A DNA stretch of 17,033 bases from Treponema sp. (lineage in GTDB: Bacteria > Spirochaetota > Spirochaetia > Treponematales > Treponemataceae): contig JAAZCS010000187.1 of the NCBI GenBank assembly GCA_012513125.1, positions 1-17,033 of the forward strand. The letters run 5' to 3'. The notes beneath the pieces were generated by a model. That model did not search any database. It worked only from the letters and a program-made list of their open reading frames with translations, and was not told the origin of the DNA. The translations under genes were made by a program, and so were the position numbers. Below, piece after piece: positions 12,760-14,574 of the stretch; the stretch's first letter is position 1; each line of letters begins with the position of its first letter.

Positions 12760-14574
12760 CTAATTTAATTTTTTTAATTCTTCTTTAATAATATCATTAG
12801 TTTTTTCAACTACGCTTTCATATGGAACTAATTCCACATTTCCATTAGTTCTTATTTTCAACTCTACATTTGGAAGATTCTTATCACCAACAACAATTCT
12901 TATTGGGAAACCAATCAAATCAGCATCTTTAAACTTTACACCTGGACGTTCATTTCTATCATCCAAAAGAACTTCAACACCAATATCTGTCAATTTATTG
13001 TAAATTTCATCAGATACTTCTTTCATTTTTCCATCATATTTTACAGGAACAATCACAACTTGATATGGTGCAGTACTCATAGTCCAGCAAATTCCATCGT
13101 CATCATGATGTTCTTCAATTACAGAAGCTAAAGTTCTATCCAAACCGATTCCATAACATCCCATAATTGGAGTTTTATACTTTCCGTTTTCATCCAAATA
13201 AGTAACATTCATTGTTTTTGTGTACTTTGAACCTAATTTGAAAATATGACCCAATTCGTTGCCTTTTTTACTGTAGAATTCTGCCCCACAGTCAGGACAC
13301 TTGTCCCCAGGAACTACAACCCTAACATCAGCAGTCATAAATGACTCAAAATCTCTTTGTGGTTCAACATGAATATTATCGTAATCCTTTGTTCCACCGC
13401 CTGTTACAGTATCATGCAAATTTTTCACACTTTCATCTGCAATCAGTGGTAACTTTGTCAATCCAACAGGTCCAACAAATCCATGAGGAGCACCTGAATA
13501 TTCTATTACTTCTTCTTCATTTGCTAACTCAACATCACTTGCCTTTAAACAAGCAGACAATTTTGTCTCACTAACATCCAAATCACCACGAATTGCAACA
13601 GCAACAAAACTTACAGGATAAAAAGGAACAGCAACATCTTTTGATTCCAGTTTGAAAGCTTTTCCACCAGGGGCATTGCTAAAATCAATTGAACTATTAT
13701 AAACTTTATACACAAGTACTTTTATAAATTGCCTAGCCGACATTTTGAAGAATTCTTCCATTTGTGCAATTGTTTCCACTCCAGGACAATGAACTTTTTC
13801 AATTACCTTATCAGTTTTCACTAATGGATTTCCATTCAAATCTGTGGCAACGTCTTCTTTACAAGTCGCTTTTTCAACATTTGCAGCATATCCACATTTT
13901 GGACACAAAATTAATGTATCGTCACCAACTTCACTTTCAACCATGAACTCTTCAGAACCAGAACCGCCCATTGCACCTGTATCCGCTTTTACAGAAATTG
14001 TCGACAATCCCAATCTTTTAAATATTTTTCTATATGCTTAAGCACATTTGTCATATGATTCATCAAGTGATTTCTGATCAGCATCAAAAGAATAAGCGTC
14101 CATCATCGTAAATTCACGACCGCGCATCACTCCATAACGAGGACGAATTTCATCACGATATTTTGTATTGATTTGATATGCAATAATTGGCAATTGTTTA
14201 TAGCTTGAAAGCCCATCTCTAATTAGTGCAGTAAAAGCCTCTTCCGCAGTAGGACTAACAACCATATCCTGACCGCCTCGGTTTGTAGCCTTTAACATTT
14301 CATTGCCCATAGTTTCCCAACGTCCACTTTCTTTCCAAATGTCACCGGGAACAATTACTGTTGGTTTAATTTCAAGAAGACCGGCGTTATCTAATTCCTC
14401 ACGAATTATGTTCTCAATTTTTCGAAACGCTCGTAATCCCAACGGCATGTATGAATAAAGACCGTTTCCTAGTTTTCGAATAAGACCAGAACGCATCATC
14501 AATTTATGACTTGCAATAACGGCATCAGATGGAGATTCTCTAAGAGTAGAGATAATAGTTTTTGTTGCTTTCAT
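12760..14574 (-). pseudogene. proS: Prolyl-tRNA synthetase, interrupted by an in-frame TAA stop
   Basis: Read through, this is a 604-codon bacterial-type ProRS, which charges tRNA-Pro with proline. The part before the stop (14574-14038, 178 residues) holds class II motif 1 (about 36-64) and motif 2 (RDEIRPRYGVMRGREF, 140-155). After codon 179 (TAA, 14040-14038) the same frame continues AYRKIFKRLGL, which matches the family. The remainder holds the PADTGAMGGSGSEE-like segment, the YbaK-type insertion (editing) domain (about 225-410), motif 3 (GCYGIGLDR, near 472-480) and the C-terminal anticodon-binding domain. The three codons Cys-Ala-stop replace the usual Met-Tyr-x before AY, so either a nonsense change or two compensating one-base shifts could explain it. 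An in-frame TTG at 14013 would restart only the C-terminal 417 residues, without motifs 1 and 2. There is no Shine-Dalgarno at the first ATG. Because ProRS is essential, a sequence error, recoding or a second copy elsewhere must be considered. Confidence 0.9.

Follow-up and report, generated by a model that had tools for sequence, protein, structure and literature searches.

Why should the gene for prolyl-tRNA synthetase (ProRS), an enzyme that cells require, carry a stop codon within an otherwise intact reading frame? The question is raised by positions 1 to 17,033 of contig JAAZCS010000187.1 of Treponema sp. (assembly GCA_012513125.1). This stretch, analysed as a whole and referred to below as the window, is contig 6 of a draft genome of 2,265,936 bases in 406 contigs that is 80.6% complete. 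A first-pass annotation, made from the letters alone, had reported an in-frame TAA inside a ProRS gene whose two sides lie in one frame and both resemble the enzyme. In the assembled sequence this description proved correct on both counts. The features concerned are the following:

12760..14574, minus strand: proS, bacterial-type (family II) prolyl-tRNA synthetase, 604 codons with one inner stop; NF006625/TIGR00409 matches both halves, and relatives are about 58-73% identical
14038..14574, minus strand: first open part of proS, 178 codons plus TAA, taken from the list of open reading frames; NF006625 positions 1-176
14038..14040, minus strand: in-frame TAA, proS codon 179, where the near-identical protein P0001 has Glu
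12760..14037, minus strand: second part of proS, 425 codons plus the terminal stop, without further break; NF006625 positions 180-557
14035..14044, no strand: TGCTTAAGCA, a perfect palindrome containing the stop, at chance level

The frame consists of 605 triplets, and only triplets 179 and 605 are stops. Model NF006625 (559 positions; TIGR00409, proS_fam_II) is covered by the two parts in this single frame. Scored separately, the first part reached 282.7 bits and the second 407.2; neither attains the cut-off of 558, which is a threshold for the whole protein. The gene is an ordinary bacterial ProRS gene, matching the bacterial-type enzyme (NF006625/TIGR00409; solved structures 2j3l and 5ucm) over the length of the model. 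It departs from that type in one respect: its frame is interrupted by the TAA at codon 179, a site at which 33 relatives were read without a stop.

These 33 loci (L004-L032, L033, L036, L041 and L042) were compared around codon 179; the genome's own copy (L003) was left out, as were L034, L035 and one part of L033, which fall short of the site. The stretch shown around the codon is gapless in all of them. The first-pass annotation had seen three neighbouring deviations here, K-C-A-stop in place of K-M-Y-x-A-Y, and had explained them by two compensating one-base shifts flanking the stop. The pattern that it quoted is close to that of the solved chain 5ucm_A, which reads D-G-M-Y-Q-A-Y, but the nearest relatives do not have it. 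The nearest genus relative (G007) reads D-K-C-A-[A]-A-Y, G030 reads E-K-C-A-[R]-A-Y, G011 reads D-R-V-A-[S]-A-Y, and the other relatives read D-N-V-A-[A or E]-A-Y or Q-A-Y-A-[K]-A-Y. The near-identical protein P0001 reads D-K-C-A-[E]-A-Y and differs in that stretch at codon 179 only. Since K-C-A is native in the nearest relatives, there is one deviation, the stop itself, and the two-shift explanation, refuted by the relatives' sequences, retains next to no probability. On the sequences aligned, the deviation is confined to a single codon, whose residue differs from relative to relative (Lys 13, Ala 9, Arg 4, Glu 4, Ser 1, Val 1, Gly 1).

The palindrome to which attention had also been drawn is real. 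However, the window holds 24 perfect 10-bp palindromes, compared with a mean of 28.8 (range 21-40) in 50 mononucleotide shuffles, and at this chance level TGCTTAAGCA carries no signal.

P0001 (604 residues) differs from the window ProRS at positions 64, 179 and 362 only. It represents a cluster of six members and three contigs; the representative alone was compared, as a protein. A similar counterpart was found for the replicative polymerase gene dnaE of the same draft genome, which contains two in-frame stops (see below). The DnaE protein P0241 shows two differences besides the stop sites in 1209 residues compared (the query was used without its last codon), and it carries Tyr and Glu at L196:4844 and L196:3710, respectively. 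All three stop sites are thus occupied by sense residues in P0001 and P0241. The longest contigs that hold these two proteins measure 19,043 and 61,087 bases, respectively. A base error private to one assembly should leave near-identical copies intact, and these two are intact as proteins; the comparison was made at protein level with cluster representatives whose sources were not shown. As far as the copies seen tell, the TAA in proS appears to be private to this draft assembly. Two other proteins in the database look unusual. The DnaE protein P0242 seems chimeric, being 58-94% identical to P0241 in blocks of 50 residues up to residue 900 and then identical to the end, while the 712-residue ProRS P0005 contains, from residue 308, a near-repeat of 130 residues (93% identical, offset 128), perhaps an assembly duplication.

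Decay of the gene compensated by a second ProRS, for example of the archaeal/eukaryotic type, had been suggested as another possible cause. The search did not bear this out: no second bacterial-type ProRS was seen in the genome itself (80.6% complete), and no archaeal/eukaryotic-type enzyme scored above the curated cut-off in 39 genomes of the genus, this one included, and on these searches the explanation was rejected. Weak extra matches of the ProRS search in the same genome were C194 and C47. Records of Treponema and of other spirochaetes make up the named relatives in the genome collection; many come from animal gut samples. Of the 35 other genomes of the genus compared for ProRS, 28 encode it in a single frame that no inner stop interrupts (L004-L029, which account for 26, and G013 and G027, the latter cut at residue 558). 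In G026 the gene is spread over two contigs, in G008 and G016 it runs into a contig end after 45 and 37 residues, respectively, and G010, G017 and G023 gave no ProRS match. The gene of G031 (L033:2498), another draft genome of the genus, shows a different fault, a frame change near residues 161-165.

The break could also divide the enzyme into two polypeptides that assemble into one synthetase, the second starting shortly after the stop, a possibility that the first-pass annotation had listed:

14011..14013, minus strand: TTG, codon 188, the first possible restart after the stop; opens a 417-aa frame in the same frame

This codon lies only 8 codons (24 bases) past the TAA, both parts of the gene are intact, and the relatives read at this place have Met (13 of 33), Leu (16), Cys (3) or Ala (1). 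No G-rich ribosome-binding site was seen by eye in the 40 bases preceding the TTG at 14013. The break, which we take to lie shortly after class II motif 2, falls within a stretch that aligns gaplessly to the solved ProRS 5ucm, which argues against a split. A split synthetase would be expected to show its break in related genomes or in independent assemblies, and a break at codon 179 occurs in none of the 33 relatives read at the site. Among the best 120 of the 1597 proteins matching the first part, the closest has 266 residues and 91% identity, so that no near-identical short form of 178 residues is present among the matches listed. Moreover, stops also interrupt other genes of this genome, at positions unrelated to this one. 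Our search of the literature found no relevant report of a split or stop-bearing ProRS, from which absence from print is not claimed. Nothing in this analysis singles out a split enzyme, and we consider it highly improbable.

Further in-frame stops were sought in contigs 1-100 (contig 1 to base 20,000 only) and in contig 108, added for gyrA (101 contigs, 582,211 bases). The scan relied on codon usage and listed stops with a coding-like frame of at least 25 codons on each side; it misses stops near gene ends. Nine of the 50 listed positions, proS included, were confirmed by means of relatives or family models, and 40 of the others appeared by eye to be gene borders, antisense frames or unclear cases. 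The confirmed stops outside proS are:

L153:2332: TAA, SpoIIE-type sensor, whose HAMP and SpoIIE domains follow the stop; a single frame in 19 loci of relatives
L196:4844 and L196:3710: TAA at both, dnaE (Tyr and Glu in P0241)
L196:9850: TAA, gltX; 12 genus relatives have Glu (5), Lys (3), Ser (2), Gly (1) and Gln (1)
L205:3385: TAA, thrC; Leu in 13 of 13 genus relatives
L328:13053: TAA, uvrB; Glu in 6 of 9 relatives read, Met in 2, Gln in 1 (one of 10 fetched stretches was unmatched)
L338:2280: TAA, U32-family gene; Glu in 8 of 10, Asn in 1, Asp in 1
L367:4102, contig 108: TGA, gyrA; Gly in every other genome compared there

In total, eight of the nine confirmed stops are TAA and one (gyrA) is TGA; the eight from contigs 1-100 are all TAA. 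At the two dnaE sites, pattern matching in 120 listed proteins gave Tyr in 108 (12 unmatched) at the first, and Glu in 93 and Ala in 2 (25 unmatched) at the second. Contigs 1-100 (574,341 bases) contain 151,540 coding-like codons, which with eight stops corresponds to about one stray stop per 19,000 such codons. The families gyrA and rpoC had been chosen in advance of their results. The lists of sites were partly chosen for holding stops. Only 508 codons of rpoC are present, at a contig end, and they showed no stop. A type I restriction R gene (L331:1933) also contains an in-frame TAA spanned by the family match. As an accessory gene it could be a true pseudogene, and it was kept out of the counts. 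In addition, a rough scan of the 101 contigs for frameshifts flagged 12 candidate places.

Six genes (proS, the SpoIIE-type gene, gltX, thrC, gyrA and rpoC) were read in relatives as a control, leaving out the last 15 codons of each copy. No internal stop was found in 131 copies (89,920 codons). At the rate of this genome 4.7 stops would be expected there (P(0)=0.009), a comparison in which four of the seven genes that supply the stop rate also belong to the six control genes, and in which the control loci, being the best matches found, favour intact copies.

The composition of the stops was compared with two substitution models. With all substitutions at equal rates, 5.4% of those possible in these genes create a stop, and 52% of these stops are TAA; with G:C-to-T:A alone the values are 14.5% and 70%. 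For eight TAA codons out of eight (contigs 1-100) the probability is 0.005 at equal rates and 0.055 with G:C-to-T:A alone; for at least eight out of nine (gyrA included) it is 0.026 and 0.19, respectively. Glu is the residue of the near-identical protein, or of the majority, at four of seven sites (P=0.006-0.009 for equal rates and 0.45 for G:C-to-T:A); the gltX and SpoIIE-type sites were left out of this test because they are too variable. The thrC site, with Leu, does not fit G:C-to-T:A. The implied rate is about one substitution per 3,000 to 8,000 bases. Missense changes at otherwise conserved sites numbered two in proS (0-7 in controls), one beside the stop in gyrA (0-21), two in rpoC (0-12), nine beside the stop in thrC (0-13) and 17 in gltX (0-18). 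The gltX and thrC values are the second highest in their sets, and those of proS, gyrA and rpoC are unremarkable compared with the controls. Such counts are compatible with the presence or the absence of the few errors expected at the implied rate, and neither show nor exclude them. Codon 652 of dnaE gives no sign of error, since its Lys is shared by 42 of 80 matched proteins.

Simultaneous loss of ProRS, GluRS, the replicative polymerase and gyrase is not compatible with growth. Essential genes being hit together, the stops in growing cells should be either read through or absent. A suppressor tRNA or weak release factor that usefully reads through UAA (and UGA), yielding full-length products, would account for stops in a number of essential genes that otherwise retain an open and conserved frame, and for the exclusive use of TAA in contigs 1-100. 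In-frame stops are reported to be widespread in bacterial genes in PMC7918605, where they are argued to be real and mostly short-lived. The likeness to the cases in that paper, for which readthrough is presumed, lies in a single in-frame stop within an otherwise conserved gene. The difference is that the stops described there are argued to be real, whereas here near-identical proteins are stop-free, the proS and dnaE sites being filled by sense residues in them, and more than one essential gene is affected at the same time. Against readthrough, furthermore, two kinds of stop codon are involved, TAA and TGA; the former is also the most frequent terminator (of 190 long coding frames, 127 are closed by TAA, 46 by TAG and 17 by TGA); and the control copies of relatives are free of stops. 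No stop-reading anticodon was found among 23 tRNA genes, a weak test in which 13 of the 20 isotypes were recovered (Asp, Glu, His, Ile, Lys, Phe and Pro were missing). Useful readthrough thus seems very unlikely. Still less credit can be given to a Treponema-like strain that tolerates UAA and UGA in proS, gltX, dnaE and gyrA through leaky termination, with a different residue inserted at each site.

A reassigned stop codon should specify one residue across genes and should no longer be the usual terminator. In this genome the replaced residues differ (Glu, Tyr, Leu, Gly and variable ones), which makes one reassigned codon unlikely, TAA and TGA are both involved, and TAA ends most of the long frames. 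Reassignment of TAA alone had looked possible from the terminator counts; it was dropped because of the differing residues and the TGA in gyrA.

A real and very recent nonsense mutation in the sampled cells, from a dead, mixed or mutator population, would agree with the undamaged state of the rest of the gene and its near identity to an intact protein. Most genomes of the genus, moreover, are without a strong MutY match, a condition that could favour G:C-to-T:A changes. Nevertheless, such mutations would have to be the population consensus in proS, dnaE (twice), gltX and gyrA together, a burden that growing cells could not bear, and relatives that likewise lack a strong match to MutY are free of such stops in the genes that were read. 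Among the 39 genomes of the genus, MutY matches exceeded 160 bits in four (all below the cut-off), were weaker in 33, including this one, and were absent from two. Weak matches being the rule throughout the genus, MutY loss does not single out this genome, and a mutator of this kind was rejected. On this evidence we judge a real mutation unlikely, though less so than useful readthrough.

The near-identical protein without the stop, together with similar stray stops in other essential genes, indicates that the TAA in proS most likely arose as an error in the draft genome. Among the causes originally listed, a sequence or assembly error is the best supported, given the intact near-identical proteins and the eight further stops. 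We infer that the stops are errors rather than real mutations, and their chemical type likewise. They would represent errors of reads or consensus left uncorrected in a draft genome of low quality, perhaps of a guanine-to-thymine (oxidation-like) type. Oxidation-type sequencing artefacts, reportedly treated by Costello et al. 2013 (a reference cited in PMC5994075), appear as G-to-T or C-to-A changes. The conversion of Glu and Gly codons to stops seen here fits that class; the Leu site of thrC does not, and in the present case the type is deduced from the proteins and codons of relatives.

We therefore hold it very probable that the TAA in proS is a base error private to the draft assembly, one of several stray nonsense codons and not new biology; the in-frame TAA is most likely no real feature of the gene. 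The case shows how an apparently broken essential gene can be resolved, by reading near relatives and then checking the same assembly for the same fault. With stray stops at about the rate given above, gene losses or recoding inferred from this assembly are not to be trusted.
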